Shown piece after piece: positions 29,947-53,065 of a stretch of 64,000 nucleotides of DNA (its first letter is position 1; each line of letters opens with the position of its first letter). Source of the DNA: Nitratireductor soli (lineage in GTDB: Bacteria > Pseudomonadota > Alphaproteobacteria > Rhizobiales > Rhizobiaceae); assembly GCF_001050155.1 (NCBI RefSeq), contig NZ_LFVY01000010.1, forward strand, positions 1 to 64,000. The letters run 5' to 3'. The position numbers and the translations under genes are program-made. The notes beneath the pieces were generated by a model. The model saw only the letters and a list, made by a program, of their open reading frames with translations, ran no database searches and was not told where the DNA came from.

Positions 29947-29973
29947 TTTCCTAGCCCCTGTGCCTTGCGTGAG
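29947..29973 (-). promoter_or_regulatory. Shared flagellar promoter motif before motA
   Basis: The minus strand reads CTCACGCAAG, 9 bases, CTAGGAAA. The first half and the CTA fit the motif found at four other flagellar units; the last bases do not fully fit. It ends 31 bases before motA. Confidence 0.6.
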
Positions 29974-30004
29974 GCTTGAATGCGGGACGAGCACGCTCGA
30001 AAGC

Positions 30005-30031
30005 CTCGCGCAAGAAAGGCGTTCTAATCTC
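30005..30031 (+). promoter_or_regulatory. Shared flagellar promoter motif before the DUF1217-flgF unit
   Basis: CTCGCGCAAG, 9 bases, CTAATCTC. It ends 29 bases before the TTG start. It lies back to back with the motA copy, so both units of this divergent region carry one. Confidence 0.7.
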
Positions 30032-30060
30032 CGGCCACGAATGATGGCGGAGGGTGCGCC

Positions 30061-31182
30061 TTGATCAACACGTTCACGAGCTTTCATCTGATCAATCGCG
30101 ACCTGTCGCGCTCGCTGGAACGCATCCAGTCGCAGCCGGTGGTGCAGCGCGAGACCGAATATTATCAGGCCAACATCGGCCGGGTGACGTCGATCAAGGA
30201 GTTCGTCGACGACGACCGCCTGTTCGGTTACGCCATGAAGGCGCATGGGCTGGAAGACATGACCTATGCCAAGGCATTCATGGTCAAGGTGCTGGAAGAA
30301 GGCGTCAGCGATGCCGAAAGCTTCGCCAACAAGCTGACCGACAAGCGCTATGCCGATTTCGCCCGCACCTATAATTTCGCCGCCGGCGGCGAGAACACCA
30401 CCACCTACAATCCCGCCCAGAAGGGCACGATCGACAAGTATGTCAGCGTCGCCATCAAGAATGGCGTCGATCCGAGCAGCGAGGCGCTGCTGAAGAACAT
30501 CAACGACTATCTGCAGAACATCACGCAGGTGAAATCGGCCGACGATCTTCTGGCCAACGACAAGCTTCTGAACTTCGCCCTGGTGGCCCATGGGTTTACC
30601 CACGAAGTGATCGACAAGCGCACGCTGAAGGCCATTCTGGAAGGGGGCATCGACGATCCGAAGAGCCCCGCCAACCAGCATGCCGACAAACGCTTTGCCG
30701 CCCTGGCAACCAGCTTCAACTTCGCCCGCTATGGCGAGGACGCCACCACCTACAATGAGACGCTCTCGCCGGCGATCGACAAATATCTGCGGCAGACGCT
30801 CGAGGAAGATGCCGGCAAGCAGAACGAAGGCGTGCGCCTGGCGCTCTATTTCCAGCGCAAGGCGCCGAATATCCGTTCCTATTATGAATTTCTGGCAGAT
30901 CCGGCGATTGCCAAGGTCATTCGTTCGACGCTCGGCTTTCCCGATGCGCTGGCCCAGGCGAACATCGACAAGCAGGTCGATCTGATCAAGGAGCGCATCG
31001 ATATCGAGGACTTCAAGGATCCCGACAAGGTCGATGAATTCCTCAAGCGTTTCACGACCATGTGGGAATTGTCGAACCCGTCCGGTTCCCAGCTCCCCTC
31101 GATCGCCGCCCTTTACAGCCAGCCGGCGGAATACGGCATTTCCACCGACGTGCTGTTCACCATCGCCCAGTTGAAGAGGTAG
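30061..31182 (+). CDS. DUF1217 protein of the flagellar cluster
   Basis: A 373-residue protein built of repeated alpha-helical DUF1217 modules: two segments, near residues 45-115 and 145-235, share the pattern A-HGL/F, then DKRYADFAxxYNF/DKRFAALATSFNF and G(E)xTTYN. No signal peptide or membrane segment is seen, and the function is unknown. The TTG start follows GGAGGG. As the first gene of the long flgF-fliP unit, conserved in rhizobial flagellar islands, it may be an export-related or secreted flagellar component. The latter is inference. Confidence 0.75.
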   Translation: MINTFTSFHLINRDLSRSLERIQSQPVVQRETEYYQANIGRVTSIKEFVDDDRLFGYAMKAHGLEDMTYAKAFMVKVLEEGVSDAESFANKLTDKRYADFARTYNFAAGGENTTTYNPAQKGTIDKYVSVAIKNGVDPSSEALLKNINDYLQNITQVKSADDLLANDKLLNFALVAHGFTHEVIDKRTLKAILEGGIDDPKSPANQHADKRFAALATSFNFARYGEDATTYNETLSPAIDKYLRQTLEEDAGKQNEGVRLALYFQRKAPNIRSYYEFLADPAIAKVIRSTLGFPDALAQANIDKQVDLIKERIDIEDFKDPDKVDEFLKRFTTMWELSNPSGSQLPSIAALYSQPAEYGISTDVLFTIAQLKR

Positions 31183-31191
31183 CGACGTTCC

Positions 31192-31908
31192 ATGCAGACC
31201 GGACTTTACGTGGCCCTTTCCTCCCAGGTCGCGCTCGAGCGGCGGCTGGGCACGCTTGCCGACAACGTCGCCAATGCCAGCACGGTGGGCTTCCGCGCCA
31301 CATCCGTCAATTTCCAGGACATCGTCAACGGTCTGGGGCCCGATTCGGTCGCCTTCGCGGCGCCCGGCAATCCCTCGCTCGACACCAATCCGGGCGGCCT
31401 GCGCGAGACCGGCAATCCGTTCGACTTCGCCGTTCAGGGTGATGCCTGGTTCGCCATCGACACGCCGGCCGGCACGGTCGTCACGCGCGACGGGCGCTTC
31501 ACCATGCGCGACACGGGCGAACTGGTCAGCATCGGCGGGCACCCGGTGCTCGATGCGGGCGGCGCGCCGCTGCTGCTCGATCCGCTGGGCGGATCGCCCG
31601 ACGTCAGCGGCGACGGGACGCTGCGCCAGAACGGCCGCCTGGTCGGCGCCATCGGGCTCTATGCCTTCGCCCCGTCGCAGAACTACGCCCGCTTCGGCAA
31701 TTCCGGTTTCCTGGCAAGCGACGCGCAGCCGGTGGTCGACAATCCCGATGTCGGCGTGGCGCAGGGCTTCATCGAGGAATCCAACGTCAACGCGATGCGT
31801 GAGATGATGCATCTGATCGAGGTGCAGCGGACCTTCGAGCAGGTCAGCGCACTGATGGGTGACAGCGACAGCGCCCTGCAGGACGCCATCAAGCTGCTTG
31901 GCGCATGA
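31192..31908 (+). CDS. flgF: Proximal rod protein FlgF
   Basis: A 238-residue rod protein. The N-terminal rod motif LADNVANASTVGFRA and the C-terminal amphipathic helix ending NAMREMMHLIEVQRTFEQ are those of FlgF/FlgG. It is exported by the type III gate and sits in the periplasmic rod. The start lies 9 bases after the DUF1217 gene, and its end overlaps fliI in ATGA. Confidence 0.9.
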   Translation: MQTGLYVALSSQVALERRLGTLADNVANASTVGFRATSVNFQDIVNGLGPDSVAFAAPGNPSLDTNPGGLRETGNPFDFAVQGDAWFAIDTPAGTVVTRDGRFTMRDTGELVSIGGHPVLDAGGAPLLLDPLGGSPDVSGDGTLRQNGRLVGAIGLYAFAPSQNYARFGNSGFLASDAQPVVDNPDVGVAQGFIEESNVNAMREMMHLIEVQRTFEQVSALMGDSDSALQDAIKLLGA

Positions 31909-33302
31909 ACCCCGACATGACGCAGGCCAACGCATCGCCAACGCCGGCCGGAGAAACCGTGCTGTCCGCCCTGGAGCAGGCCTATCGCGGCATCGCCGGC
32001 GACGACCGCTTCGTCGTCAGCCATGGCGGGCGGGTCACCGAAGTGTCGCCGACCCACTACAGCGTCAGCGGCTTGTCGCAAACGGCACGCCTCGGCGATC
32101 TCGTATCGTGCCGCGGACGGCGCGGTACGGGCGCCGGCGAGGTGGTCCGCATCAGCGCCGAGGGCGTGCTGGTCGCTCCGTTCGAAAAGACCGGCGAAAT
32201 CGGCATGGGAGAACCGGTCTTCAATCGGGGACCGCTCGGCCTGGCGCCTGGCCCTTCGTGGCGCGGCCGCGTGATCGACGCGCTCGGCCGGCCGGCCGAT
32301 GCAAAACCGGCGCCGGCCAAAGGCCCCGCCGCCATCGGTTCGTCGCCCGTCACCCCGCCGGCCATGCAGCGGCAGCGCGTCTGCGATCCCTTCCGCACCG
32401 GCGTTCGGGTGATCGACATCTTCACGCCGCTCTGCCACGGCCAGCGGCTCGGCATCTTCGCCGGCTCCGGCGTCGGCAAGTCGACGCTACTGTCGATGCT
32501 GGCCAATGCCGACGCCTTCGACACGGTGGTGATCGCCCTGGTCGGCGAACGCGGCCGCGAAGTGCGCGAATTCCTTGAAGACACGATCGGCGCCGAAAGC
32601 ATGAAGAAATCCGTCGCCGTGGTGGCGACCAGCGACGAAAGCGCCATGATGCGCCGCCGTGCGCCGGACACGGCCATGCGCGTCGCCGAGTATTTCCGCG
32701 ACCGCGGCGACAAGGTCCTGCTGATCCTCGATTCGATCACCCGCTTCGCCCATGCCCTGCGCGAAGTGGCCATCGGCGCCGGCGAACCGCCGGTGGCGCG
32801 CGGCTATCCCGCTTCCGTTTTCACCGAGCTGCCACGCCTGCTCGAGCGCGCCGGCCCCGGCGAGACGGGGCGCGGTTCCATCACCGCAATCCTCTCGGTG
32901 CTCGTCGATGGCGACGACCACAACGATCCGGTCGCCGATGCGGTGCGCGGCATCCTCGACGGGCATGTGGTGCTCGACCGATCGATCGCCGAGCAGGGCC
33001 GCTATCCGCCGGTCAATCCCCTTGCCTCGATCTCGCGCCTGGCCGACCGCGCCTGGTCGCCCGACCAGAAGCGCCTGGTGCTCAGGCTGCGCAACATGCT
33101 GGCGCGCTTCGAGGACACGCGCGACATCCGCCTGCTCGGCGCCTATCAGGCCGGCATCGACCCCGACCTCGACCAGGCCGTGCGGCAGGTGCCTTTGATC
33201 TATGAGGCGCTGACGCAAGCGCCGAGCGATCCTGCGTCCGCCGATCCCTTCGCTGACCTGGCGATCAAGCTGAGAGCCGGAGAACCCGTCCATGCCGGAT
33301 AA
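31905..33302 (+). CDS. fliI: Flagellar export ATPase FliI
   Basis: A 465-residue ATPase of the F1-beta/type III export family. It has Walker A GSGVGKST (about residues 183-190), Walker B VLLILDSITR and the export signature GRGSITAILSVLVDGDD. It unfolds and loads export substrates together with FliH. It overlaps flgF by four bases and the next gene by eleven. Confidence 0.95.
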   Translation: MNPDMTQANASPTPAGETVLSALEQAYRGIAGDDRFVVSHGGRVTEVSPTHYSVSGLSQTARLGDLVSCRGRRGTGAGEVVRISAEGVLVAPFEKTGEIGMGEPVFNRGPLGLAPGPSWRGRVIDALGRPADAKPAPAKGPAAIGSSPVTPPAMQRQRVCDPFRTGVRVIDIFTPLCHGQRLGIFAGSGVGKSTLLSMLANADAFDTVVIALVGERGREVREFLEDTIGAESMKKSVAVVATSDESAMMRRRAPDTAMRVAEYFRDRGDKVLLILDSITRFAHALREVAIGAGEPPVARGYPASVFTELPRLLERAGPGETGRGSITAILSVLVDGDDHNDPVADAVRGILDGHVVLDRSIAEQGRYPPVNPLASISRLADRAWSPDQKRLVLRLRNMLARFEDTRDIRLLGAYQAGIDPDLDQAVRQVPLIYEALTQAPSDPASADPFADLAIKLRAGEPVHAG

Positions 33303-33963
33303 GCTCGCAAGCCTCGAACTGCCGGACGGCAGCTTCACCGAAACCACCGGAACGCCCTTGCCGGGCGCGGCGAACAACCGTCCGCAACGGGCGAGATTTT
33401 TCTATCGCCGCTCGGAGAAGAAGCCCATCGTCAAGCCTTCCGGAGGCGGCACCGACTGGGCCGTCATGCTCGGCGGCATCGGCCTGGCGACGGTCTGCGC
33501 GCTGTTTCCCTGGTACATCTTCCTCAATCAGGAGGAATTCGGTGTTCGGCCGCTGGCCTTCGAGGGACGTCCGCCCGACGAAGGGCCCGCGCCCGCCTTC
33601 CTGCCGGAACTCGTCGGCATGCGCATTCCGCAGCGGATGATCGAACTGCCCCAGCTCGACTACAGCGCGACAGGCACCGTCAGCGCCGAGCCGCCCGAAG
33701 CGCTGCCCGAACAGCCCTTCCCCGGCGACGCCAACCCGTTTCGCGTCGTCCATGCCGCCAATGGACGGGCGATGATCGAGGACAAGGACGGCTACTGGAT
33801 CGTCCAGCGCGGCTCGTCATTGCCCGACGGCAGCCGTGTCTCGCGCATCCAGAACAACCAGGGAAAATGGGAAATCGTCACCACGCGCGACGCGGTGATC
33901 GCCGTCTCGGCCGAGGAACCTGCCGACACGCAAGGCCCGCGCAAGACTGGTTTTCTAAGGTAG
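33292..33963 (+). CDS. Uncharacterised single-pass membrane protein between fliI and flgB
   Basis: A 223-residue protein with a basic cytosolic N-terminus, one helix at about residues 55-77 (WAVMLGGIGLATVCALFPWY) and a periplasmic remainder. The C-terminal 70 residues (MIEDKDGYWIVQRGSSLPDG and on) look like a small beta domain. I do not recognise a named family. It overlaps fliI by eleven bases and stands before flgB, so it is part of the flagellar unit; a role in basal-body assembly is plausible from position and topology only. Confidence 0.65.
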   Translation: MPDKLASLELPDGSFTETTGTPLPGAANNRPQRARFFYRRSEKKPIVKPSGGGTDWAVMLGGIGLATVCALFPWYIFLNQEEFGVRPLAFEGRPPDEGPAPAFLPELVGMRIPQRMIELPQLDYSATGTVSAEPPEALPEQPFPGDANPFRVVHAANGRAMIEDKDGYWIVQRGSSLPDGSRVSRIQNNQGKWEIVTTRDAVIAVSAEEPADTQGPRKTGFLR

Positions 33964-34000
33964 CGGTCAACCGTGTTCGCATAGAACGAGAGACCAAACG

Positions 34001-34378
34001 ATGCAGCCCGTCAATCTGTTCGATCTCGCCACCCAGCAGGCCAGATGGCTTTCCGTCCGGCAGACGACGGTGGCCAGCAACGTCGCCAACGTCAACACGC
34101 CCGGCTACAGGGCGCTCGAAGTCGAACCGTTCGAGAAGGTGTTGAACGGCTCGCGTGTCGCCATGCAGGGGACCAGCGCCAACCATCTCAAGAGTGGCGC
34201 GACAAACGCCTCTTTCGCCGTCAACAACACGCCGGACCCGGCGGTCCTGCCGTCGCAGAACACCGTCAGCATCGAGAAGGAGCTGGTCAACGCCGGCGAG
34301 GTGCGCCGTTCCTTCGAGCTCAACACCGCCATCGTCAAGGCGTTCCACCGCATGCTCATGAACACGTCGAGAGGATAG
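34001..34378 (+). CDS. flgB: Proximal rod protein FlgB
   Basis: A 125-residue rod protein with the N-terminal motif ASNVANVNTPGYRA at about residues 26-39 and a C-terminal helix suited to coiled packing with FlgC. It has the usual length for the family. The flgC start lies 3 bases after its stop, and no promoter motif is seen in the 37-base gap before it. Confidence 0.93.
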   Translation: MQPVNLFDLATQQARWLSVRQTTVASNVANVNTPGYRALEVEPFEKVLNGSRVAMQGTSANHLKSGATNASFAVNNTPDPAVLPSQNTVSIEKELVNAGEVRRSFELNTAIVKAFHRMLMNTSRG

Positions 34379-34381
34379 GCC

Positions 34382-34801
34382 GTGGATCCGCTTTCCGCCG
34401 CACTCAAGGTTGCCGCGTCCGGCCTGCAGGCGCAGTCCGCGCGCCTGCAGGTCGTTTCGGAAAACCTGGCCAACGCCAAGTCGACCAGCGACGTGCCGGG
34501 CGGCGACCCCTACCGCCGCAAGACCATCAGCTTCGTCGCCGAGCTCGACCGCGACATGGGCGGCAGCATGGTCGAGATCGGTGCGGTCGCCACCGACCCG
34601 TCCGATTTCACGCTTGAATACGATCCCGGCCACGAGGCGGCGGACGAGCGCGGCTACGTCAGGATGCCGAATGTCAACGTGCTGGTCGAGATGGCCGACA
34701 TGCGCGAGGCCAATCGCGGCTATGCGGCCAATCTGCAGGTCATCAAGCAGGCGCGCGAACTGATTTCAATGACCATAGATCTGATGCGGAGCCAGTCATG
34801 A
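34382..34801 (+). CDS. flgC: Proximal rod protein FlgC
   Basis: A 139-residue rod protein with the N-terminal [20 protein letters not shown] and the C-terminal [20 protein letters not shown] motifs. The GTG start follows the AGAGGATAGG stretch at the flgB end. It overlaps fliE by four bases. Confidence 0.93.
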
Positions 34802-35106
34802 TTCCCCCCGTCGGCACCATTGCCCCCCTTTCGCCCTCCAATGCTTCGGCGCTCCAGCTCGGGCGGCAGGCAACGGCCTCGGAAACGGGCGAGGCCTTCA
34901 GCGCCATGCTTGGCGAGGCGGCGGCCAACACCATGGCCAAGCTTGGCCATGCCGAGACGGTGTCGCTGAAGGCATTGCAAGGCGAGGCCGACGCCCGAGA
35001 GGTGGTGGACGCGGTGATGAGCGCCGAACAGGCGCTGCAGGCGGCGATCGCCGTCCGCGACAAGCTCGTCACGGCCTATCTCGACGTCACCCGCATGGCC
35101 ATTTGA
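34798..35106 (+). CDS. fliE: Hook-basal body complex protein FliE
   Basis: A 102-residue protein joining the MS-ring to the proximal rod and needed to open rod export. The C-terminal half ([38 protein letters not shown]) carries the conserved helix pair. It has the usual size and lies in the classic flgB-flgC-fliE order. Confidence 0.92.
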
Positions 35107-35118
35107 GGAGCCTGACCC

Positions 35119-35907
35119 ATGAAAGCCCTGTCCATCGCGGCCACCGGCATGAGCGCCCAGCAGCTCAATCTGGAAGTGATCGCCAACAACATCGCCAACA
35201 TCAACACGACCGGCTTCAAGCGGGCACGGGCGGAATTCTCCGACCTGCTCTACCAGACGGAGCGCCTGCAGGGCGTGCCGAGCCGCGCCAACCAGGCGAT
35301 CGTGCCGGAAGGCGCCAATGTCGGCCTCGGCGTGCAGGCCGCCGCCGTGCGCAACCTGCACATCCAGGGCTCGCTGACCAACACCGGCAACAAGCTGGAT
35401 GTGGCGCTGGTCGGCCGCGGCTGGTTCGAGATCGAGGGCGCCGATGGCGAACCGCTCTACACCCGAGCCGGCGCGTTCAACACCAACGCCACCGGCCAGC
35501 TTGTGACGACGCAGGGCTATACGGTGGCCCCGGCGATCGTCGTGCCTGAGGACGCCATCGAGGTGGTCATCAACAAGACCGGCCAGGTCTTTGCCCGCCT
35601 CGACGGCCAGGCCGAACTGCAGAACCTCGGTCAGCTGACGCTGTCCAACTTCGCCAACGAGGCAGGCCTGGCGCCCATCGGCGACAATCTGTTCCGCGAG
35701 ACCCCCGCCTCCGGCGCGGCAACGCCCGGCGTCCCCGGCGATCCGGGTTTTGCGACGACCCAGCAGGGCTATCTGGAGAACTCCAACGTCGATCCGGTGA
35801 AGGAAATCACCGAGCTGATATCCGCCCAGCGCGCCTATGAAATGAACTCCAAGGTGATCCGTGCCGCCGATGAAATGGCTGCCACCGTCACCCAGTCGAT
35901 ACGGTAG
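35119..35907 (+). CDS. flgG: Distal rod protein FlgG
   Basis: A 262-residue distal rod protein that crosses the P- and L-rings. It shows [19 protein letters not shown] at about residues 24-42 and the C-terminal [20 protein letters not shown]. The length matches the family. It has a GGAG site 9 bases before the ATG. Confidence 0.95.
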
Positions 35908-35913
35908 GGCCAA

Positions 35914-36381
35914 TTGAACCGGCACAGCTCCCTCATGGCGCATTTTCTCGCGCTCCTGGCGATTTTCACGCTGGCGGTTCCCGCCGGTGCGCAGGAGCAG
36001 GCGGTTGTGTCCACCCGCGTCATCTATCCCGGCGAAACCATCACCATCGACGCGCTCGATGAAGTGGCGCTGCGCCGCCCGCCGCGCGGCAACACGGCAA
36101 TCGCCCGCATGATGGAGGAGATCGACGGCAAGGTTGCCAGGCGCACGCTCCTGCCTGGCCGGCTGATCCCCAGCAGCTATGTGCGCGATCCCTATCTGGT
36201 GGAAAACGGCACGCCGGTGACTGTGCTGTTCGTCGAAGGCGCCCTGTCCATTTCAATTCGCGCGGTCCCCCTGCAGGCGGGCGCCGCCGGCGACATGATC
36301 AAGCTCCGTAACGCCGACAGCGGCCGCACCTTCATGGGAACGGTGATGGCGGACGGCACGGTCAAGGTCGGCGCGATATGA
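35914..36381 (+). CDS. flgA: P-ring assembly chaperone FlgA
   Basis: A 155-residue periplasmic chaperone for the FlgI ring. A signal peptide covers about residues 1-26 with cleavage after AGA. The SAF-like domain follows, with GRLIPSSYVRDPYLVENG. The TTG at 35914 has AGGG near it; the ATG at 35935 lacks a ribosome site. It overlaps flgI by four bases. Confidence 0.88.
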   Translation: MNRHSSLMAHFLALLAIFTLAVPAGAQEQAVVSTRVIYPGETITIDALDEVALRRPPRGNTAIARMMEEIDGKVARRTLLPGRLIPSSYVRDPYLVENGTPVTVLFVEGALSISIRAVPLQAGAAGDMIKLRNADSGRTFMGTVMADGTVKVGAI

Positions 36382-37496
36382 TCGTCCGTTTCCTGACCGC
36401 CGCGCTCCTTTCCATCGCCCTCCTTCCCATCGCTTTGGCGACACCGGCCGGCGCCGCCTCGCGCATCAAGGATGTGGCGATGCTGCAGGCCGCCCGCGAC
36501 AACCAGCTTGTCGGCTATGGCCTCGTCATTGGCCTGCAGGGCAGCGGCGACAGCTTGCGCAACGCGCCCTTCACCGAACAATCCATGCGCGCCATGCTGG
36601 AAAATCTCGGCATCGCCTCCGAAGGCGGTCGCGCCCGCGCCAAGAACGTGGCGGCCGTCATCGTCACCGCCAACTTGCCGCCCTTCGTCCAGTCGGGCGC
36701 GCGCATCGACATCAATGTCTCCTCGCTGGGCGACGCGACGTCGCTTGCCGGCGGCACACTGGTCATGACACCGCTGCGCGCCGCCGATGGCGACATCTAC
36801 GCCGTGGCGCAAGGCTCCGTCATCGTCTCCGGCTTCAGCGCCCAGGGCCAGGCCGAGCAATTGACCCAGGGCGTGCCGACCGCCGGCCGCGTGCCCAACG
36901 GCGCCATCATTGAGCGCAAGGTCGAGGCCTCGCTGTCGGACACGGCCACGCTGGTCCTGCAATTGCGCAACGCGGATTTCTCGACCGCCGTCAGGGTTGC
37001 CGACGCCATCAACGCCTATACGGGTTCCCGCTTCGGCCAGCGGCTCGCGGTGGAAGAAGATTCCCGCACGATCCGCATCCAGCGGCCGAAGGGCATTTCC
37101 TTTGCCCGCTTCTATGCCGAGATCGAGAACCTGATGGTCGAATCCGACGGTCCGGCCCGCGTCGTCGTCGACGAACGCACCGGCACGGTGGTGATCGGCA
37201 ACGATGTACGCATCTCGCGCGTCGCCATCAGCCATGGCGCGCTGACCGTGCGCATCACCGAGATGCCGCGGATCGTCCAGCCGGAGCCTTTCTCGCGCGG
37301 CGAGACCGCCGTCGAACCCTTCACCCAGATCGTCGCCGACCAGCCGGACGCCAAGGTGGCGGTGCTCGACGGCCCCGATCTGCAAACCCTCGTCTCCGGT
37401 CTCAACCGGCTCGGCGTCAAGCCCGACGGCATCATCGCCATTCTCCAGGGCATCAAATCCGCCGGCGCCCTGCAGGCCGAACTCGTGCTGCAATAG
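36378..37496 (+). CDS. flgI: Flagellar P-ring protein FlgI
   Basis: A 372-residue P-ring subunit. A signal peptide at residues 1-27 is followed by SRIKDVAMLQAARDNQLVGYG, the family's mature start, and the C-terminal LVSGLNRLGVKPDGIIAILQ. It forms the bushing around the rod in the peptidoglycan layer. It starts inside the flgA stop. Confidence 0.95.
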   Translation: MIVRFLTAALLSIALLPIALATPAGAASRIKDVAMLQAARDNQLVGYGLVIGLQGSGDSLRNAPFTEQSMRAMLENLGIASEGGRARAKNVAAVIVTANLPPFVQSGARIDINVSSLGDATSLAGGTLVMTPLRAADGDIYAVAQGSVIVSGFSAQGQAEQLTQGVPTAGRVPNGAIIERKVEASLSDTATLVLQLRNADFSTAVRVADAINAYTGSRFGQRLAVEEDSRTIRIQRPKGISFARFYAEIENLMVESDGPARVVVDERTGTVVIGNDVRISRVAISHGALTVRITEMPRIVQPEPFSRGETAVEPFTQIVADQPDAKVAVLDGPDLQTLVSGLNRLGVKPDGIIAILQGIKSAGALQAELVLQ

Positions 37497-37504
37497 GCCG
37501 GATC

Positions 37505-38718: not shown

Positions 38719-38747
38719 ACACGATCCCCTCTGGAGTCTGACAAAGC

Positions 38748-39970: not shown

Positions 39971-40028
39971 ATTGAACACGCGGCATTCCGGCACTGTTCA
40001 AGTGGAAACCGGCGACTGGACGTCCTGA

Positions 40029-40059
40029 ATGGAGCCGCACCGCGGCTCCATTTCATTTT
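40029..40059 (+). terminator. Rho-independent terminator after fliP
   Basis: A perfect 10-base stem, ATGGAGCCGC and GCGGCTCCAT, with an ACC loop is followed by TTCATTTT. The U-rich end runs into the fliF promoter motif, so this marks a unit boundary. Confidence 0.8.
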
Positions 40060-40084
40060 CGCACAAGCTTCGGAAGCTAGGCTC
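40058..40084 (+). promoter_or_regulatory. Shared flagellar promoter motif before fliF
   Basis: TTCGCACAAG, 9 bases, CTAGGCTC. It ends 31 bases before the fliF TTG start, directly after the terminator. Confidence 0.72.
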
Positions 40085-40115
40085 CCAGTCGTTATTTCCA
40101 TGGGAGCATTGGGCG

Positions 40116-41753
40116 TTGCCTGAGCAGTTTCAGACCGTTGTCGAAAACCTGAAAAGCCTGGGAGCCAGGCGGCTCGCCATCATGGGCGGCATCTTCACGC
40201 TGGTGATGGCCGTCATCGTCGCCGGCGCCACCTATCTCAACCGGCCGGCCTACGAGACCTTGTATGTCGGCCTCGACCGCTCCGACGTCAATCAGATCGG
40301 CCTGGTTCTCGGCGAGGCCGGCATTGGTTTCGACGTGGTTTCCGATGGCACCTCGGTTCTCGTGCCGGCCGGCAAGACCGCCCAGGCGCGCATGCTCCTG
40401 GCCGAGAAAGGCCTGCCGAGCAGCACCAATGCCGGCTACGAATTGTTCGACAATGTCGGTTCGCTCGGCCTGACGACATTCATGCAGCAGGTCACCCGGG
40501 TGCGCGCGCTGGAGGGCGAGATCGCCCGCACCATCCAGTCCATCGCCGGCATCAAGGCGGCCCGCGTCCACATCGTCATGCAGGAGCGCGGCACGTTTCG
40601 CGCCGAGGAGCGGCAGCCCTCGGCTTCCGTCGTCATTCGCGCCTCGAACGTCAACGTGGCGGGAACGGCTGCCTCGATCCGCTATCTGGTGGCGGCCGCC
40701 GTGCCTGGCCTCGATGCCGAGAAGGTGACCGTGCTCGATTCGGCAGGCACGCTTCTGGCCGCTGGCGACGACCCGGCCAACAACACCGCGCAGCGCTCCA
40801 TCGGCGTCGAGCGCAATGTCGAAGGCCAGATCGAGGAAAACATCCGCCGCGCGCTGACCCCCTATCTCGGACCAGAAAACTTCCGCGCCAGCGTCAAGGC
40901 CGACATCAACACCGACGCCCGGCAGATCGAGGAAGTGATCTATGATCCGCAATCGCGCGTCGAACGCTCGGTGCAGGTCGTCCGCTCGAGCGACAGCGCC
41001 AATCGCGAGACGGCGATCCAGCCGACATCGGTGGCGCAGAACCTGCCGCAGGACGAGACGGCGGCAACCGAAGGGCCAAAATCCTCCGAGGAGAGCGAAC
41101 GGCGCGAGGAAACCACCAATTACGAACTGAACACAAAGCGCATCGCCACCACCAGCAACGGCTACAGCGTCGAGAAGATGTCCATCGCCGTGGTGGTCAA
41201 CCGCGCCCGGCTGATGCAGATCCTGGAAGCCAATGCGACGCCCGACCAGGTGGCCGAGCGGATTGCCGAGATCGAGAAGGTCGTGGCCTCCGCCACCGGC
41301 TTCAACCAGACGCGCGGCGACATCATCAGCGTCTCGGCGGTCGAGTTCATCGACGGACTGGACGGAACGCCGATCCCCGAACCCGGCATTCTCGATACGC
41401 TCGGTCAGCAGACCGGCACGATGATCAATGCCGCGGCCTTCATCCTGGTCGCCTTCCTTGTCACCTGGTTCGGCCTGCGCCCGCTCGGCACGACGCTGAT
41501 GCGCCCCATGATGGTCGAGGGGCCGGCCGGAGAGAACATGCAACGCTCGCTGCCGACGCCGGAAGAGCAGGCGCAACTGACCGCCGACGGCTATTTGGAC
41601 CCGATCCTCGAGGAGGACGACACCTACGGCACGCACCGCCTGAAGATTCGACCCGCCCCGCAGGAGCGGCTGGCCCGCATGGTCGACCTCAATGAAGAGC
41701 GCACCGCGCATATCCTGCGCAAATGGGCGCGCGCCGAAGCGGAGGCGGTCTGA
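40116..41753 (+). CDS. fliF: Flagellar MS-ring protein FliF
   Basis: A 545-residue MS-ring subunit. The first helix is at about residues 20-40, followed by ring-building motifs (QVTRVRALEGEIARTIQSI and VHIVMQERG), a long periplasmic part, a second helix near residue 455 (MINAAAFILVAFLVTWFGL) and a cytosolic tail that binds FliG. I chose the TTG at 40116 because GGGAG lies 9 bases upstream and the protein then starts like other FliF proteins. A frame from 40029 would run through the terminator and is unlikely. Confidence 0.93.
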   Translation: MPEQFQTVVENLKSLGARRLAIMGGIFTLVMAVIVAGATYLNRPAYETLYVGLDRSDVNQIGLVLGEAGIGFDVVSDGTSVLVPAGKTAQARMLLAEKGLPSSTNAGYELFDNVGSLGLTTFMQQVTRVRALEGEIARTIQSIAGIKAARVHIVMQERGTFRAEERQPSASVVIRASNVNVAGTAASIRYLVAAAVPGLDAEKVTVLDSAGTLLAAGDDPANNTAQRSIGVERNVEGQIEENIRRALTPYLGPENFRASVKADINTDARQIEEVIYDPQSRVERSVQVVRSSDSANRETAIQPTSVAQNLPQDETAATEGPKSSEESERREETTNYELNTKRIATTSNGYSVEKMSIAVVVNRARLMQILEANATPDQVAERIAEIEKVVASATGFNQTRGDIISVSAVEFIDGLDGTPIPEPGILDTLGQQTGTMINAAAFILVAFLVTWFGLRPLGTTLMRPMMVEGPAGENMQRSLPTPEEQAQLTADGYLDPILEEDDTYGTHRLKIRPAPQERLARMVDLNEERTAHILRKWARAEAEAV

Positions 41754-46261: not shown

Positions 46262-46784
46262 CCTCGGCCTGATGGGCGCGGCTCACGCCGCGACCAACCC
46301 TTGCGAGGGGGAGATCCTGCGCGCGGCGGAGAAATACGACATTCCGCCCGGAATCCTTTATGCCGTAGGCCTCACGGAGACCGGCATCAAGGGAAGCCTG
46401 CAACCCTACGCGCTCAACATCGAGGGCAAGGCCGTGTTCGCCCGCGGCGCCGGAGAGGCCATGCGGGCCTTCGAACAGGCCCGGCGGAACGGCGCGAAAC
46501 TGATCGATCTCGGCTGCATGCAGATCAACCATCACTACCATGCCGGCAAATTTCCAAACTTGCGCGCCATGCTCGATCCGCACCGCAATGTCGACTATGC
46601 GGCGCGCTTTCTGGTCGAGCTGAAGCGGCGGCACGGCTCCTGGTCGATGGCTGTGGCACGCTATCACGCCGGGCCGAACAACGACCCCGCGCAGAAGCGT
46701 TATGTCTGCCGCGTCATCACCAACATGGTCGCGACGGGCTTCGGGTCATGGACCTCGGAAGCAAGATCTTTCTGCACCCCCTGA
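46233..46784 (+). CDS. Small lytic transglycosylase of the flagellar cluster
   Basis: A 183-residue exported enzyme with a signal peptide at residues 1-19 (GAAHA) and an SLT domain. The catalytic Glu49 is in GLTETGIKG, followed by LGCMQINHHYH and VARYHAGPNN. It would open peptidoglycan for rod passage, a role FlgJ's C-terminal domain plays in enteric bacteria. The start lies within the fliK end (29-base overlap). The FlgJ-like gene at 56458 lacks such a domain, so the two may share the FlgJ task. Confidence 0.88.
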   Translation: MRLAAVFTFSLGLMGAAHAATNPCEGEILRAAEKYDIPPGILYAVGLTETGIKGSLQPYALNIEGKAVFARGAGEAMRAFEQARRNGAKLIDLGCMQINHHYHAGKFPNLRAMLDPHRNVDYAARFLVELKRRHGSWSMAVARYHAGPNNDPAQKRYVCRVITNMVATGFGSWTSEARSFCTP

Positions 46785-46930
46785 TTGAATCTTTCTCGAG
46801 CCCGGAAATAAACTGGTGACAAACCGGCCACACCCGACTCCCTATTATTGATTCCTTAAATCTGATGGTTGTGCGTGATTCGCCCGACCGGTTACGACTT
46901 GACACACAAAGTGATTCGGAGGGCGGGCCG

Positions 46931-47605
46931 GTGATTGTGGTGATAGACGAGCGTGAGCTGGTAACGGAGGGTTATCACTCACTTTTCAACAGGGAGGGCG
47001 TCGCCAGTGCTGGCTTCGCCCCGGAGGAATTCGGCGAATGGGTGCAAACCGTCGCCGATGACGAGTTGAAGGCGGTCAGCGCCTTTCTCCTCGGCCAATG
47101 CGGGGCCGGCAATCTGTCGGCGCAAAGCATCCGCGACCGTTCGCCGGCGCCACTGATCGCGCTCAGCGAGCGCAATTCTCTGGACGACACGCTGCGCCTG
47201 TTCGAATGGGGCGTCGACGATGTGGTCCGCAAGCCGGTGCACATCCGCGAAATCCTGGCGCGCATCACGGCGATCAGCCGGCGCGCCTTGCAGGACACGG
47301 TGAACTTCACGCAGATCGGCACGATGCGCATCTATTTCGACGGGCGCGATCCGGAAATCGACGGCCAACCCCTGCCGCTGCCGCGCCGCGAGCGCCGGAT
47401 CCTCGAATACCTCGCCGGCAATCCGACGCGCCGCGTGACCAAGACGCAGATTTTCAATGCCATCTACGGCATCTTCGACGAGGACGTCGAAGAAAATGTC
47501 GTCGAGAGCCACATCAGCAAGCTGCGCAAGAAGCTGCGTGAGAAGCTCGGCTTCGACCCTGTCGATTCCAAGCGTTACCTCGGCTACCGGCTGGTCGACG
47601 CCTAG
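46931..47605 (+). CDS. ftcR: FtcR/Rem flagellar transcription activator
   Basis: A 224-residue OmpR-type regulator. The GTG at 46931 has GGAGGG 7 bases upstream and gives [15 protein letters not shown], which fits FtcR of Brucella and Rem of Sinorhizobium; a longer frame to 46865 lacks a good site. The receiver-like domain (1-115) has no Asp at the usual phosphorylation strand ([11 protein letters not shown]) but keeps Lys in VVRKPV. The winged helix is at about 130-224 ([20 protein letters not shown]). It is the likely binder of flagellar promoters under VisNR. Bases 46785-46930 hold only its leader. Confidence 0.88.
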
Positions 47606-47657
47606 CCACCCCGCGCCGTTTGCGCCAGGCGTCGCATTCTTGCTTCGCCTGGCCAGT

Positions 47658-47684
47658 TTCGCGCAAGTCACAATCCGTAATCTC
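47658..47684 (+). promoter_or_regulatory. Shared flagellar promoter motif before flgE
   Basis: TTCGCGCAAG, 9 bases, GTAATCTC. It ends 35 bases before flgE. Confidence 0.7.
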
Positions 47685-47719
47685 ACCGTGATCGGCGTAG
47701 ACTACGAGGAGACATCCCG

Positions 47720-48976
47720 ATGGGCCTTTACGGCATGATGCGAACCGGCGTATCCGGCATGGCGGCGCAATCCAACCGGTTGTCGACGGTTGCCGACAAC
47801 ATCGCCAATTCCAGTACCAATGGCTACAAGCGGGCAAAGGCGGAATTTTCCTCCCTTGTCCTGCCTTCCTCGGGGGGCTCTTATAATTCGGGCGGCGTGA
47901 CCACCTCGATCCGCTATTCGATTTCCCAGTCCGGGCCATTGCAATACACCACGTCCGGCACCGATCTGGCGATCGAGGGCGGCGGGTTCTTCGTCGTGCA
48001 GGATGCCAGCGGCAAGCCTTTCCTGACGCGCGCCGGATCGTTCGTTCCCAATGCGGAGGGCGAACTGGTCAACGCCGCCGGCTACAAACTCATGGGCTAC
48101 AGCTATGCCAACGGCACGCCCGCCGTTACCGCCAATGGCTATGCCGGACTGGAAGCGGTGACGATCGCCCAGTCGGAACTCGTATCGACGCCATCGCGCA
48201 ACGGCACGCTGACGGCCAATCTGCCCGCCAGCGCCGAAATCGTGCCGGGCGCCGACCTGCCTTCGGGCAATGCGGCGGGCGCCCAGTACTCGCACAAGAC
48301 ATCGCTCGTCGCCTACGACAATCTCGGCGGCCAGAAGCTGCTCGATGTCTACATGACCAAATCCGGCGCGAACACCTGGGAAGTGACGGTCTACGACCGC
48401 GCCGACGCCGCGCCCAACACATCCTTCCCATACGCCAACCCGCCATTGTCGACGACAACGCTGAACTTCGACCCGACGAATGGCAAGCTCGCCGGCGGCA
48501 GCCCGACGGACATCACGCTGGCGGTTCCAGGTGGCGACACGCTGACGCTCGACCTGTCCGACATGACGCAGCTCGATGCCGGCTTCTCGGCCAAGGGCGA
48601 GGTCGACGGCAGCGCACCCTACGCGATCGACAGCGTGGAAATCGGCAATGACGGAACGATCTTCGCCCAGTATGCCGACGGCTCGATGCGCGCGCTTTAC
48701 CGCATCCCGGTCGCCAATGTGCAAAGCCCGGACCAGCTCCAGGTGGTCACCGGCAACGTCTTCTCCGAAGGCGCTGAATCGGGAGGCGTGCAGCTCGGCT
48801 TCGCAGGTGAAGGCGGGCTTGGCAAGGTGGTCGCCGGCGCGCTGGAAAGCTCCAATGTCGACATCGCCCAGGAGCTGACCGACATGATCGAGGCGCAGCG
48901 CAACTACACAGCAAACTCGAAAGTGTTCCAGACCGGCTCCGACCTGATGGAACTGCTCGTCAACCTGAAACGATAG
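47720..48976 (+). CDS. flgE: Flagellar hook protein FlgE
   Basis: A 418-residue hook subunit. It has the N-terminal motif ADNIANSSTNGYKRAKAEF, a Gly/Ser/Thr-rich exposed middle and the C-terminal NVDIAQELTDMIEAQRNYTA. Exported by the type III gate, it forms the universal joint. It is the first gene of flgE-flgK-flgL-flaF-flbT-flgD-fliQ and has its own promoter motif. Confidence 0.95.
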   Translation: MGLYGMMRTGVSGMAAQSNRLSTVADNIANSSTNGYKRAKAEFSSLVLPSSGGSYNSGGVTTSIRYSISQSGPLQYTTSGTDLAIEGGGFFVVQDASGKPFLTRAGSFVPNAEGELVNAAGYKLMGYSYANGTPAVTANGYAGLEAVTIAQSELVSTPSRNGTLTANLPASAEIVPGADLPSGNAAGAQYSHKTSLVAYDNLGGQKLLDVYMTKSGANTWEVTVYDRADAAPNTSFPYANPPLSTTTLNFDPTNGKLAGGSPTDITLAVPGGDTLTLDLSDMTQLDAGFSAKGEVDGSAPYAIDSVEIGNDGTIFAQYADGSMRALYRIPVANVQSPDQLQVVTGNVFSEGAESGGVQLGFAGEGGLGKVVAGALESSNVDIAQELTDMIEAQRNYTANSKVFQTGSDLMELLVNLKR

Positions 48977-49013
48977 GCCGGTTCCTGCGGCACGAGGGAG
49001 TGGAAGAGAGTAA

Positions 49014-50462
49014 ATGTCACTGACATCTGCACTAAGCATCGCGCAAACCGCGCTGTTCAACACCTCGCGCCAGACCAGCGTTGTATCGCGCAACGTTGCC
49101 GAAGCCTCCAATCCCGACTACGCGCGCCGCAGCGCCGTGCTGACCAGCACGCTGCCCGGCGCGCGCATCGCCAAGATCAAGCGCGCCGCAGATGAGGTTC
49201 TGTTCCGCCAGAACCTGTTCGCCGTCTCCTCCTGGCAGGGGCAGAAGGCCATGTCGGGCGGGCTCAACACGCTGCAGCTGACGGTCAACGGCGCCGACAA
49301 TGCGACAGCGCCGGCAACGGCGATCAGCAAATTGCAGGCCGCGCTGCAACTCTATGCCTCGACGCCGTCGAACACCACGCTGGCCGAGAGCGCGGTGCAG
49401 GCGGCCCACCAGGTCGTCCGCTCGCTGAACAGCGGCGCCGGCGCGATCCAGACCTTCCGTGCCGAGGCCGACGCCGAGATTGCCACGGCCGTTGGCGATC
49501 TGAACCGGCTCTTGGCAGAGTTCGAAGTGGTCAACACCGAAGTGGTCAACGGAACGCGCACCGGGCGCGATGTGGCCGATGGGCTCGACCGCCGCGACGC
49601 GCTCCTGAAGCAGATCTCCCAGTATGTGGCGATCTCCACCAACACGCGCTCGGGCAACGACCTGGTCATCATGACCGGCGACGGCGCGACGTTGTTTGAA
49701 ACCGTGCCGCGCCCCGTTACCTTCAACGCCAACAGCACCTATGGCCCAGCCACCACCGGCAATGCCGTCTACATCGATGGCGTGCCGATGACGCCCGGTG
49801 TCGGCGGCAACACCAGCGCCAGGGGTTCGATCGCCGCCCGCCTGCAATTGCGCGACGACACCGCCGTGATGATGCAGCGTCAGCTGGACGAAGTGGCGCG
49901 CGGCCTGATCACCACCTTCGCCGAGACCGACCCGAACGGGGTCCTGGCCGATGTCGCCGGCCTGTTCACCTGGTCGGGCGGCCCCGGCGTACCGCCTGCC
50001 GGCACGCTGGAAGTCGGCCTGGCCGCCGGCATCCGCGTCAATGCGTTGATGGACCCGGCCGCCGGCGGCAGCGCGTCGCTGCTGCGCGACGGCGCGACCT
50101 ATCTGCACAACACCAGCGGCGCGGCATCCTACTCCGATCTGCTCAGAACCTATTCCGAACGTCTTGAAGAGCCGATGGCCTTCGACCCGGCGGCCGGTCT
50201 CGACACGACGCGCAGCGTCACGGCCTTCTCCTTCGACACGGTCAGCTGGCTGGAAAGCAACCGCCAGCAGGCCGACAGCGGCGCCGAGGGCAAGGAAGCG
50301 CTGGCCGTCCGCACGGCGACCGCATTGTCCAACCTCACCAGCGTCAATGTCGATGAGGAAATGGCGCTGCTCCTCGATCTGGAGCATGCCTACGAAGCCT
50401 CGGCGCGTCTCCTCTCGGTGATCAACGAGATGCTCGCCACGCTCATGCAGGCGACGCGATAG
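49014..50462 (+). CDS. flgK: Hook-filament junction protein FlgK
   Basis: A 482-residue first junction protein. The N-terminal SVVSRNVAEASNPDYARRSA corresponds to the family's xxNIANxxTxGY motif, and the C-terminal MALLLDLEHAYEASARLLSV is conserved. It sits between hook and filament. It is separated from flgE by 37 bases. Confidence 0.92.
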   Translation: MSLTSALSIAQTALFNTSRQTSVVSRNVAEASNPDYARRSAVLTSTLPGARIAKIKRAADEVLFRQNLFAVSSWQGQKAMSGGLNTLQLTVNGADNATAPATAISKLQAALQLYASTPSNTTLAESAVQAAHQVVRSLNSGAGAIQTFRAEADAEIATAVGDLNRLLAEFEVVNTEVVNGTRTGRDVADGLDRRDALLKQISQYVAISTNTRSGNDLVIMTGDGATLFETVPRPVTFNANSTYGPATTGNAVYIDGVPMTPGVGGNTSARGSIAARLQLRDDTAVMMQRQLDEVARGLITTFAETDPNGVLADVAGLFTWSGGPGVPPAGTLEVGLAAGIRVNALMDPAAGGSASLLRDGATYLHNTSGAASYSDLLRTYSERLEEPMAFDPAAGLDTTRSVTAFSFDTVSWLESNRQQADSGAEGKEALAVRTATALSNLTSVNVDEEMALLLDLEHAYEASARLLSVINEMLATLMQATR

Positions 50463-50474
50463 AAGGTCCATGAC

Positions 50475-51524
50475 ATGAAAACCTCCTTCATCTCATCTCT
50501 GGCGATGTCGCAGACGCTGCGCTACCAGGTGATGCGCATGCAGGTCGAGCTTGCCCAGAGAACGAAGGAGTCCCAGACCGGGACCGTGGCCGATGTCGGC
50601 GTCGCGCTCGGCGGCCATGCCGGGCGCAATCTCTCGATGAACCGTGACATCGAACGCCTCGGCGGCCTGATCGATTCCAACTCGCTGGCAGCCAGCCGGT
50701 TGAAGGCGACGCAGGACGCCATGTCGCAGATCAACGACATCGGCCAGAGCCTGCTTGCCGTGCTGACGGCCCCCAGTTCCAGTGTCGATCAGATCGCCAT
50801 CACCCGCTCCGAAGCCGAGCGCGTGCTGAAGTCGATGACCGGTATTCTCAATACGAGCATGAATGGCGAGTATCTTTTCGCCGGCATCAACACCGATGTG
50901 AAGCCGGTCACCGATTTCTCCGACCCTGCCTCGCCGGCCAAGATCGCTTTCGACGCAGCCTTCATGGCAAAATTCGGCTTCCCGCAATCCGACCCGGCCG
51001 CCGCCGGCATCAGCGCCGCCGACATGGAAGATTTCCTGACCAACTACGTCGAGCCGCAGTTTCTCGGCGCCGGCTGGCAGACCAATTGGTCGAGCGCATC
51101 CGACCAGAAGATCACCACCCGCATCGCGATGAACGAGACGGCCGAGACATCGATCACCGCCAATGAGCAAGGCCTGCGCAAGCTGGCGATGGCGGCGTCG
51201 ACCATTTCTGAATTGCTGAGCGGACCGCTCAGCGACGCAACGCGCGGCGTCCTCTACGCCCGCGTCATGACGATGGTGGGCGAGGCAACCGCCGACATCG
51301 CCAACGCCCAGGCCAGGGCCGGCATCGTCGAAAACCGCATCGAGGATGCCAGCGCCCGCACCTCTTCGCAGATCGACCTTTTCAAGAACCTCATCAAGGA
51401 TTCGGAAGGCATCGACCCCTACGAGGCGGCGACCAGGGTCAACGACCTGCTGGCCCAGCTCGACGCTTCATACGCGCTGACGGCGCGCCTCCAGCAACTC
51501 AGCCTGCTCAATTACCTGCGGTAG
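50475..51524 (+). CDS. flgL: Hook-filament junction protein FlgL
   Basis: A 349-residue second junction protein with flagellin-like ends: the N-terminal coil (residues 10-70) and the C-terminal helix ending ALTARLQQLSLLNYLR. It contacts FlgK and the first flagellin layer. It starts 12 bases after flgK. Confidence 0.9.
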   Translation: MKTSFISSLAMSQTLRYQVMRMQVELAQRTKESQTGTVADVGVALGGHAGRNLSMNRDIERLGGLIDSNSLAASRLKATQDAMSQINDIGQSLLAVLTAPSSSVDQIAITRSEAERVLKSMTGILNTSMNGEYLFAGINTDVKPVTDFSDPASPAKIAFDAAFMAKFGFPQSDPAAAGISAADMEDFLTNYVEPQFLGAGWQTNWSSASDQKITTRIAMNETAETSITANEQGLRKLAMAASTISELLSGPLSDATRGVLYARVMTMVGEATADIANAQARAGIVENRIEDASARTSSQIDLFKNLIKDSEGIDPYEAATRVNDLLAQLDASYALTARLQQLSLLNYLR

Positions 51525-51557
51525 CCGAGCGCCAGGAAACCACGAGACGGGAAGCCC

Positions 51558-51905
51558 ATGTATCAGTTTTCCTACAGCGAAGTTCAGACCGATTCGCTGG
51601 CCGATGCCAAGGACCGCGAGCAGCAGGTGTTGAGCCGCTCGATCGACCTGTTGATCGCCGCCCGCGACAAGGGTGTGCAATCGCAGGAGACGGTCGAGGC
51701 GATCCACTTCATGATGCGCGTCTGGACCGCCTTCATCGACGATCTGGGCAATCCGGAAAACGAGCTCCCGAAAGAGCTGCGCGCCAATCTGATTTCCATC
51801 GGCATCTGGCTCCTGCGCGAGGCGGAGGAAGTGCGTCAGGGCCGTTCGGAAAATTTCGACGGCCTGATCGAGGTGTCGCAGATCATCCGCGACGGCATCC
51901 AATGA
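51558..51905 (+). CDS. flaF: Flagellin synthesis regulator FlaF
   Basis: A 115-residue all-helical protein of the FlaF family. In alphaproteobacteria FlaF promotes flagellin translation or secretion and opposes FlbT. It shows MYQFSYSEVQ at the start and INLISI-like ANLISIGIWLLREAEEVRQG near the end. It overlaps flbT by four bases, so both are made in fixed ratio. Confidence 0.92.
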   Translation: MYQFSYSEVQTDSLADAKDREQQVLSRSIDLLIAARDKGVQSQETVEAIHFMMRVWTAFIDDLGNPENELPKELRANLISIGIWLLREAEEVRQGRSENFDGLIEVSQIIRDGIQ

Positions 51906-52339
51906 AAAGCACGCTGAAGATCTCCATGAAGGCCAATGAGAAGATCTACGTCAACGGCGCGGTCATCAGGACCGACCGCAAGGTGACGCTGGAGTTTCTC
52001 AACAATGTGCAGTTCCTGATGGAGAACCATGTCCTGCAGGCCGAGGATGCACGCACGCCGCTGCGTCAGCTCTACTTCGCCGTGCAGATCATGCTGATGA
52101 CACCGGACAGCGCCGACGAGGCGCGTAAGATATTCTCCAGCCTCCTGCCGCGCCTTCTGGAAAATTTCAGCAATGAACGCATTCGCGCCGGGCTCAAACA
52201 GGCCGACCAGATGGTCGGCGACGGGCAGGTCTACGACGCGCTGCGGGAAATCCGCGCGCTTTACCCAATCGAAGAAGAAATCATGCAACAGGCCGGGGCC
52301 GGCGAGACACTCGCGCTCGCCATGGCGGCCGGGGAGTAA
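51902..52339 (+). CDS. flbT: Flagellin mRNA repressor FlbT
   Basis: A 145-residue FlbT-family protein. FlbT binds the flagellin mRNA leader and reduces its translation until the hook is complete. The beta-rich start KSTLKISMKANEKIYVNGAV and the helical segment RQLYFAVQIMLMTPD are family traits. It is paired with flaF. Confidence 0.92.
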   Translation: MKSTLKISMKANEKIYVNGAVIRTDRKVTLEFLNNVQFLMENHVLQAEDARTPLRQLYFAVQIMLMTPDSADEARKIFSSLLPRLLENFSNERIRAGLKQADQMVGDGQVYDALREIRALYPIEEEIMQQAGAGETLALAMAAGE

Positions 52340-52343
52340 ACCG

Positions 52344-52745
52344 ATGAATGTCACTTCCGCCACATCGACGCCGCAGGCGCAGGACCGGAACACGCCCGCC
52401 GCGGAAGCGCCGCAGACCGTCGACTACAAATCCTTCCTGCGTCTCCTGGTTGCCCAGATGAAGAACCAGGATCCGACCAGCCCGATGGAATCGACCGATT
52501 ATGTGGCGCAATTGGCCACCTTCTCCCAGGTCGAGCAGACGGTGCAGACCAATGCCAAGCTGGACCAGATCCTGCAGGCGTCGGCACTCGCCCAGGCCGG
52601 CAGCCTGGTCGGCCGCGAAATCACCTCGGCCGATGGCAAGATCACCGGCAAGGTTGCCGAGGTCAGGCTCTACAGCGATGGCGTGATGGCCGTTCTGGAA
52701 AGCGGTGACAAGATCCCGGTCGGACCGGGCGTCGTCATTCGCTGA
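52344..52745 (+). CDS. flgD: Hook cap protein FlgD
   Basis: A 133-residue short FlgD. The conserved N-terminal part is FLRLLVAQMKNQDPTSPMES, followed by YVAQLATFSQVEQ. The C-terminal immunoglobulin-like part of longer FlgD proteins (about 230 residues) is missing, as in other rhizobia. It caps the growing hook. The start at 52344 lies 4 bases after flbT. Confidence 0.92.
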   Translation: MNVTSATSTPQAQDRNTPAAEAPQTVDYKSFLRLLVAQMKNQDPTSPMESTDYVAQLATFSQVEQTVQTNAKLDQILQASALAQAGSLVGREITSADGKITGKVAEVRLYSDGVMAVLESGDKIPVGPGVVIR

Positions 52746-52751
52746 CAGCCG

Positions 52752-53018
52752 ATGAACGAAGCCGATGCCCTCGATATCGTCCAGTATGCGATCTGGACCG
52801 TGCTGGTCGCCTCCAGCCCGGCTGTCGCCGTGGCGATGATCGTCGGCGTCGGCATTGCGCTGGTCCAGGCGCTCACCCAGGTACAGGAAATCACCCTGAC
52901 CTTCGTGCCGAAGATCGTCGCCATTCTGGTCGCGGTCGCCTTTTCGGGCCCATTCGTCGCCTCGCAGATTTCCGCCTTCACCACCGTCATCTTCCAGCGC
53001 ATCGAAGGCGGGTTCTGA
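52752..53018 (+). CDS. fliQ: Flagellar export gate protein FliQ
   Basis: An 88-residue protein with two membrane helices (about 15-38 and 52-75) around LTQVQEITLTFVPKI, which is diagnostic for FliQ. It joins FliP and FliR in the export pore. It is the last gene before the flhA promoter motif. Confidence 0.95.
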   Translation: MNEADALDIVQYAIWTVLVASSPAVAVAMIVGVGIALVQALTQVQEITLTFVPKIVAILVAVAFSGPFVASQISAFTTVIFQRIEGGF

Positions 53019-53038
53019 CAAGGTTCCGCTGCTCCGCC

Positions 53039-53065
53039 TTCGCGCAAGCTTGAAGCACTAGCCTC
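53039..53065 (+). promoter_or_regulatory. Shared flagellar promoter motif before flhA
   Basis: TTCGCGCAAG, 9 bases, CTAGCCTC. It starts 21 bases after the fliQ stop and ends 58 bases before flhA. Confidence 0.7.

Follow-up and report, generated by a model that had tools for sequence, protein, structure and literature searches.

Conserved promoters of class II flagellar operons in Nitratireductor soli and their probable recognition by FtcR/Rem

The flagellar island of Nitratireductor soli, of which we analysed a stretch of 64,000 nucleotides (contig NZ_LFVY01000010.1, positions 1 to 64,000; called the window below, with all site coordinates referring to it), raises the question of which sequence and which regulator switch on its separate flagellar transcription units. 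VisNR is known to act via Rem on class II flagellar genes, and Rem/FtcR is their activator (PMC8429497, PMC4018554, PMC6180460; for fliF also PMC9456535), while mutation of rem abolishes motility in S. meliloti and R. leguminosarum (review PMC8429497); these and all further statements from cited papers refer to the available parts of their texts. Although Rem, FtcR and LafR are described as direct class II activators in rhizobia and their relatives, an operator for these promoters was not found in the literature searched. An earlier note on this DNA had described a bipartite motif before five flagellar units and proposed FtcR/Rem, encoded in the same island, as its binder. Judged from sequence, the motif is part of a real, specific and widely conserved class II flagellar promoter architecture, and we assign a probability of about 85% to the reading that FtcR/Rem, an activator of the OmpR/PhoB type, recognises it as its operator, with the operator taking the place of the -35 element in these promoters.

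The five sites lay exactly where the earlier note had placed them regarding coordinates, strands and the constant spacer of 9 bases, and its distances to the start codons held as well (31 bases for motA, 29 for the DUF1217 gene, 31 for fliF with a TTG start at 40116, 35 for flgE and 58 for flhA). The consensus drawn from them, (T/C)TCGCGCAAG-N9-CTANNCTC, stood only in part: it is exact before the DUF1217 gene and flhA, has one mismatch each before fliF and flgE, and misses the motA site, whose halves read CTCACGCAAG...CTAGGAAA, even if three mismatches are allowed. At up to three mismatches, it matched the window five times, namely at four of the five original sites and at 33936-33962. Because 100 shuffled sequences gave 1.6 matches on average and three of them reached 5, this loose consensus alone is weak. 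From 105 thinned sites, we obtained the longer motif YCAKY-YTCRCRCAAG-NYWSR-N5-TANNNT, which extends the earlier description by the upstream YCAKY and by the final T of a -10-like TANNNT (motA has A there). A sixth site, in front of flgB, was likewise absent from that description. A 32-column matrix trained on homologous sites scored the five window sites at 21.9 to 37.4, while the highest score among 100 random sequences from a first-order Markov model of the window was 19.7. This is no independent test, because the training set consisted of homologues and included two of the five, those of motA and the DUF1217 gene.

The motif proved to be specific within its own genome of 5.1 Mb. The pattern YTCRCRCAAGN10TA matched six times, five of the matches being these promoters, and a reversed control pattern matched five times. 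We further scanned the genome with a sequence-only profile built from 40 natural sites, which included the window's motA and DUF1217 sites and excluded those of fliF, flgE and flhA. The five promoters were the top five of nine matches with expect values (E) up to 10, ranging from 6.5e-4 to 0.015, clear of the next one at 0.075. Matches six to nine fell on contigs C13, C3, C33 and C23, and the region on C13 contained no matrix site scoring at least 18. The match of the pattern YTCRCRCAAGN10TA at C44:207385 reached a matrix score of 11.2 and was taken as chance; by eye, we take the open reading frames (ORFs) beside it to code for proteins resembling tRNA-dihydrouridine synthase and a cation-efflux protein.

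The same genes carry the motif in relatives. We collected 200-base upstream regions from 80 named ftcR loci and 29 motA-match loci, the own genome among them, and kept only those where the protein match began within the first 25 residues. The pattern was present before fliF in 72/72, flgE in 76/77, flhA in 34/35, motA in 19/24 and the DUF1217 gene in 14/20 regions, the latter two counts including the window's own. The matrix at a score of at least 14 gave a similar picture over 117 loci, with certain genomes counted twice: 75/78 for fliF, 44/49 for flhA, 89/112 for flgE, 15/20 for DUF1217, 19/23 for motA and 18/19 other loci for flgB, compared to just 12/993 starts when 28 further genes of the islands were scored (three each for flaF and fliP, two each for flgF and ORF 41723, one each for flgJ and fliL), ftcR with 0/95 being among the 28. 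Since the matrix was built partly from the same sites, the rows of the original five genes confirm, whereas those of flgB and the other genes test. Some of the 23 misses of flgE may be motA-side loci matching a paralogous rod gene, and the set of 28 excludes flgG (g35119, 87/112), which cross-matches flgE, and ORF 24956 (17/25), which represents the flhB case described below. The sites thus precede presumed class II flagellar operons, and few occur elsewhere. Apart from this, two genomes of another family contain box-like sites directly before a flgJ-like gene (L243:3132-3163 and L244:1807-1838, scores 21.7 and 21.1); in the own family set, flgJ had one site of at least 14 in 25 loci.

The arrangement of the conserved bases points to an activator site followed by a -10 element. 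In the 105 thinned sites, where the selected letters including the TA of the -10 are invariant by construction, we observed A at position -2 in 96/105, C or A at -3 in 104/105 and T at 26 in 90/105, with weaker preferences at -4, -1, 0 and 11-15 and with flanks at background. The bases upstream of the spacer can be read as an imperfect direct repeat of 11 bp, C[CA]AG[CT]YTCRCR followed by CAAG[CT]Y[TA][CG][GA], and the left half of the earlier motif would form its second unit. Repeat identity was 50% at lag 11 and 15-36% at the remaining lags from 6 to 17, a value reached by 0.16% of random pairings of the same columns. In ten extra sites, 6-8 of 9 repeat positions were identical, which illustrates the repeat and is no test, because these sites were hand-picked and found with the matrix. 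The earlier suggestion of an activator site over the -35 region is therewith refined to an apparent two-unit operator at a constant distance from the predicted -10, in the place of the -35. No TTGACA-like hexamer was present 16-18 bases upstream, in agreement with the absence of a normal -35 as noted before, and the right half TANNNT, with its final T in 90/105 sites, is a plausible -10 (TAGGAA in motA).

FtcR itself is suited to such a role by its domains and its distribution. The protein, whose nearest relatives are from Nitratireductor, contains a Trans_reg_C domain, has PhoB as its best and a CtrA model as its second-best NCBIfam match, both below cut-off, and the core SKLRK of its recognition helix is kept in 57/59 loci. 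Its receiver is atypical, lacking any invariant Asp or Glu at alignment positions 41-76. FtcR is present in 47/199 genomes of the order. With the window's own genome set aside, 46 remained; in these, 19/22 matches to YTCRCRCAAGN10TANNNT in the own family lay within 40 kb of ftcR (0.04 expected) and 16/51 in other families (0.68 expected), the expectations being derived from the rest of those genomes. Twenty regions were additionally fetched from other families, most for containing a pattern match, and sites scoring at least 18 preceded motA, flgE, flgB, flhA or fliF in G172, G142, G198, G113, G166, G068, G059, G127 and G200. Across genomes, the sites hence co-occur with ftcR, and this co-occurrence, together with the PhoB-like DNA-binding domain, supports FtcR as the candidate binder at the sequence level. 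Two further genomes, G040 and G108, contain strong boxes near ftcR (L248:9929-9960 and L252:9162-9193), where ftcR was the sole flagellar gene of the window to be matched.

The box may also follow a particular type of flagellum. FlhA of the high-identity type was detected in 42 genomes, 42/42 of which contain FtcR, and it was missing from five of the genomes with FtcR (G040, G091, G096, G139 and G190); the fetched region of G190 contained no site. Two types of FlhA occur together in G142, G172, G198, G166, G058, G203 and G219, one with 67-69% identity to that of the window and the other with 45-47%, which suggests two flagellar systems in one genome. In G142, G172, G198 and G166, the matches lay near the FtcR-type cluster, the 40 kb around the other flhA contained none, and the three further genomes of this kind had no match near either flhA.

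These distributions also bear on who else might bind the motif. Recognition by VisN/VisR, the LuxR-type upper tier of the cascade, appears very unlikely, even though visN- and visR-like genes sit in the island and the left half of the motif can be read as an inverted repeat. VisN (NF047402) remained unmatched at E 1e-10 in 11/13 FtcR-positive genomes searched outside the family, and in G187 inside it, with weak matches in G058 and G059. It is this lack of matches which disfavours VisNR as the binder, with the caveat that VisN evolves fast, that the window's own VisN reaches just about 68 bits and that a weak match also appears in the E. coli control. All of these twelve VisN-negative genomes except G045 and G024 have a site of at least 18 in the regions fetched, which precedes a matched flagellar gene in each case but G108. 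A. caulinodans and B. diazoefficiens likewise lack visNR, yet have rem homologues (PMC8429497). The scores of the island's VisN and VisR are so far under the NCBIfam cut-offs that curated models would leave both unnamed.

There is similarly little chance that the two halves represent the -35 and -10 elements of an alternative sigma factor. A bipartite motif of fixed spacing would be expected for such a promoter as well; promoters of the sigma-70 family, however, have spacers of about 16-18 bases, whereas the gap from CRCAAG to TA is just 10 bases, so the halves are too close together to form such a pair. Moreover, the conserved bases span 15 positions upstream of the spacer in the form of a repeat, and the distribution of the motif tracks FtcR.

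We regard binding by another OmpR/PhoB-type regulator, e.g., CtrA, whose targets in S. meliloti include class III flagellar genes (PMC6180460), as just as improbable. Such proteins share their DNA-binding fold, and the second-best NCBIfam match of FtcR mentioned above is a CtrA model. However, CtrA sites are of the TTAA type, which does not occur in the motif, and CtrA, which was not searched for here, is to our knowledge general in the order, whereas the location of the motif tracks ftcR. Finally, conservation by mere descent of the flagellar island can practically be dismissed in spite of the synteny of the islands across much of the family, since the motif positions are strongly conserved between flanks near background, fliF of G022 keeps its box about 30 kb from ftcR (L290) versus 7 kb here, and the 28 further genes in these islands are preceded by few sites.

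Coordinates of the predicted promoter elements and of the associated genes in the window (matrix, score in the 32-column matrix; E, expect value)
Feature	Position	Strand	Remarks
Predicted FtcR box and -10, motA promoter	29947..29978	-	CAAGC-CTCACGCAAG ... TAGGAA; matrix 21.9; profile E 0.005; weakest -10 of the five
Predicted FtcR box and -10, DUF1217-flgF promoter	30000..30031	+	divergent from motA site; matrix 29.5; profile E 0.007
Sixth, weaker predicted FtcR box, before flgB	33931..33962	+	CCCGCGCAAG replaces YTCRCRCAAG; matrix 15.5
Predicted FtcR box and -10, fliF promoter	40053..40084	+	matrix 37.4; profile E 6.5e-4
Predicted FtcR box and -10, flgE promoter	47653..47684	+	shortly 3' of ftcR; matrix 33.9; profile E 0.015
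Predicted FtcR box and -10, flhA promoter	53034..53065	+	matrix 31.5; profile E 0.014
ftcR (rem), OmpR/PhoB-type activator, probable binder	46922..47605	+	exact start uncertain
motA	29037..29915	-	first gene behind motA site
DUF1217 protein gene	30061..31182	+	TTG start; first gene in unit
flgB-like rod gene	34001..34378	+	followed by flgC-like, fliE and flgG-like genes
fliF	40116..41753	+	TTG start
flgE	47720..48976	+	
flhA	53124..55211	+	
visN-like LuxR-type regulator gene	23549..24241	+	NF047402, E 4e-19, 68.9 bits, cut-off 250
visR-like LuxR-type regulator gene	24242..24943	+	NF047403, E 4e-27, 95 bits, cut-off 300

If FtcR/Rem is indeed the binder, a dimer of the protein would occupy the imperfect 11-bp direct repeat, which spans the -35 region and reaches into the spacer from upstream, and would recruit RNA polymerase with the housekeeping sigma factor to the TANNNT starting five bases after the second unit. 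As at PhoB-activated promoters, a -35 element is missing. Production of FtcR, which is under VisN/VisR in S. meliloti and R. leguminosarum, would then switch on the presumed units starting with motA, DUF1217-flgF, flgB, fliF, flgE and flhA together. The ftcR gene seems to be outside the control of the box, and the gene order is compatible with read-through from the fliF unit, which could feed back on ftcR.

Several observations weigh against FtcR as the general binder of this box. The motif TGTGGGCA, reported from chromatin immunoprecipitation (ChIP) with Brucella FtcR in 118/363 peaks (PMC9456535), was absent in exact form from all six window regions (one single-mismatch copy precedes flgB) and occurred in exact form in 0/228 upstream regions. 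Either the flagellar operator is thus something other than TGTGGGCA, or the binding of FtcR differs in Brucella. Binding of Brucella FtcR was demonstrated at ftcR and betI fragments, and autoregulation was reported (PMC9456535), while no box of at least 14 precedes ftcR in any of 95 loci. Among the other families, G045 has the usual FtcR helix, yet no site of at least 12 in a region of 20 kb around ftcR; G024, whose helix differs (ESHICRLRRRLK), has no such site in two 20-kb regions, and G058 has weak sites only (17.5 and 12.4). Because most of the twenty regions were chosen for a match, that survey tells where boxes lie and not how frequent they are. The nearness of boxes to ftcR partly mirrors gene clustering, and 100 FtcR-negative genomes listed with a place for flhA of the other type (1/42 matches within 40 kb of flhA) answer this in part only, because they have another flagellar type. 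An inverted repeat also fits the operator, though somewhat less well than a direct one (46% identity over 10 pairs, reached by 1.0% of random pairings). Lastly, owing to the relatedness of the genomes, some of which are represented twice in the set of loci, the counts depend on one another and the expectations are approximate.

The sixth site, before flgB, probably represents a further promoter. It overlaps the 3'-terminal part of the preceding ORF, 33292-33963, and we retained it because copies elsewhere break the frame of this ORF (L207, by eye) and because the box recurs before flgB in other families (G068, G142, G059, G166 and G198). A seventh candidate at 25485-25516 on the minus strand, before ORF 24956-25396, scored 14.8 in the window and at least 13.6 in 20/25 loci. 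It falls within the coding sequence of flhB, towards the 3' end, where the copies, read by eye, encode M-[YFL]-x-Q-V-S-[VL]-D in frame, and we rejected it because conservation of the FlhB protein can explain the matches. In eight Mesorhizobium loci (L072, L103, L105, L112, L115, L116, L119 and L135; positions about 1220-1475), CTCGCGCAAC replaces CAAG about 8.6-8.8 kb before ftcR.

Boxes scoring 27-32 were also observed outside the flagellar island (L272:3008-3039, L276:2801-2832, L277:2672-2703, L278:3053-3084, L279:3175-3206 and L280:3068-3099). These six precede a gene for a protein of about 210-220 amino acids, followed by a LysM/M23 lipoprotein gene. Five scanned copies of the protein gave no Pfam match, and relatives were present in 4/25 genomes searched, with nearby boxes scoring 29.8, 28.6, 22.4 and 12.5. 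The gene is a candidate for a further member of the FtcR regulon in rhizobia.

With a box of about 31 bp and a predicted transcription start, much of the regulon should become readable from sequence in FtcR-containing genomes; the box also allows the published TGTGGGCA to be put to a specific test and indicates targets beyond the flagellar island. We lean slightly towards a wider view, in which a single FtcR operator defines a discrete type of alphaproteobacterial flagellum, whose regulator, operators and structural genes would be inherited across the Hyphomicrobiales as a self-contained unit. Such an operator would mark only the FtcR-type cluster where two FlhA types are present and would recruit outside genes like that for the rhizobial protein of about 210 amino acids. 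On this view, the flagellar operator would be a sequence other than TGTGGGCA.

Among known systems, the closest are those with an orthologous regulator and class II flagellar targets, the fliF region included, namely the Rem regulon of S. meliloti (Rotter et al. 2006, via citing papers) and the fliF promoter targeted by FtcR in Brucella melitensis (an earlier study cited in PMC9456535). In the literature searched, as far as the texts were available, no motif is given for the flagellar promoters of either species, and the available part of PMC8639532 gives no motif; the Brucella ChIP motif TGTGGGCA comes from the same regulator family and is unrelated in sequence. The Rem homologue LafR regulates the lateral flagella of Bradyrhizobium (PMC8429497), and in G166 (family f35, with two FlhA types), boxes lie close to the flagellar cluster of the FtcR type; an operator of LafR is not described in the available parts of the literature searched. 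In line with the earlier note, we found no published description of the exact motif in the literature searched, though Rotter 2006 or Tambalo 2010 may contain one. Operators of the OmpR/PhoB type in place of a -35 are known as a kind, while the sequence and reach of this one appear undescribed in the literature searched. The pho box bound by PhoB of E. coli is a tandem direct repeat with a period of 11 bp, which replaces the -35 and is shortly followed by the -10. The window's repeat differs from it in being CAAGCTTCG-like instead of TGTCA and in the atypical receiver of its presumed binder, whereas both systems would share an OmpR/PhoB-type activator, an 11-bp tandem repeat in the place of the -35 and a -10 element downstream.

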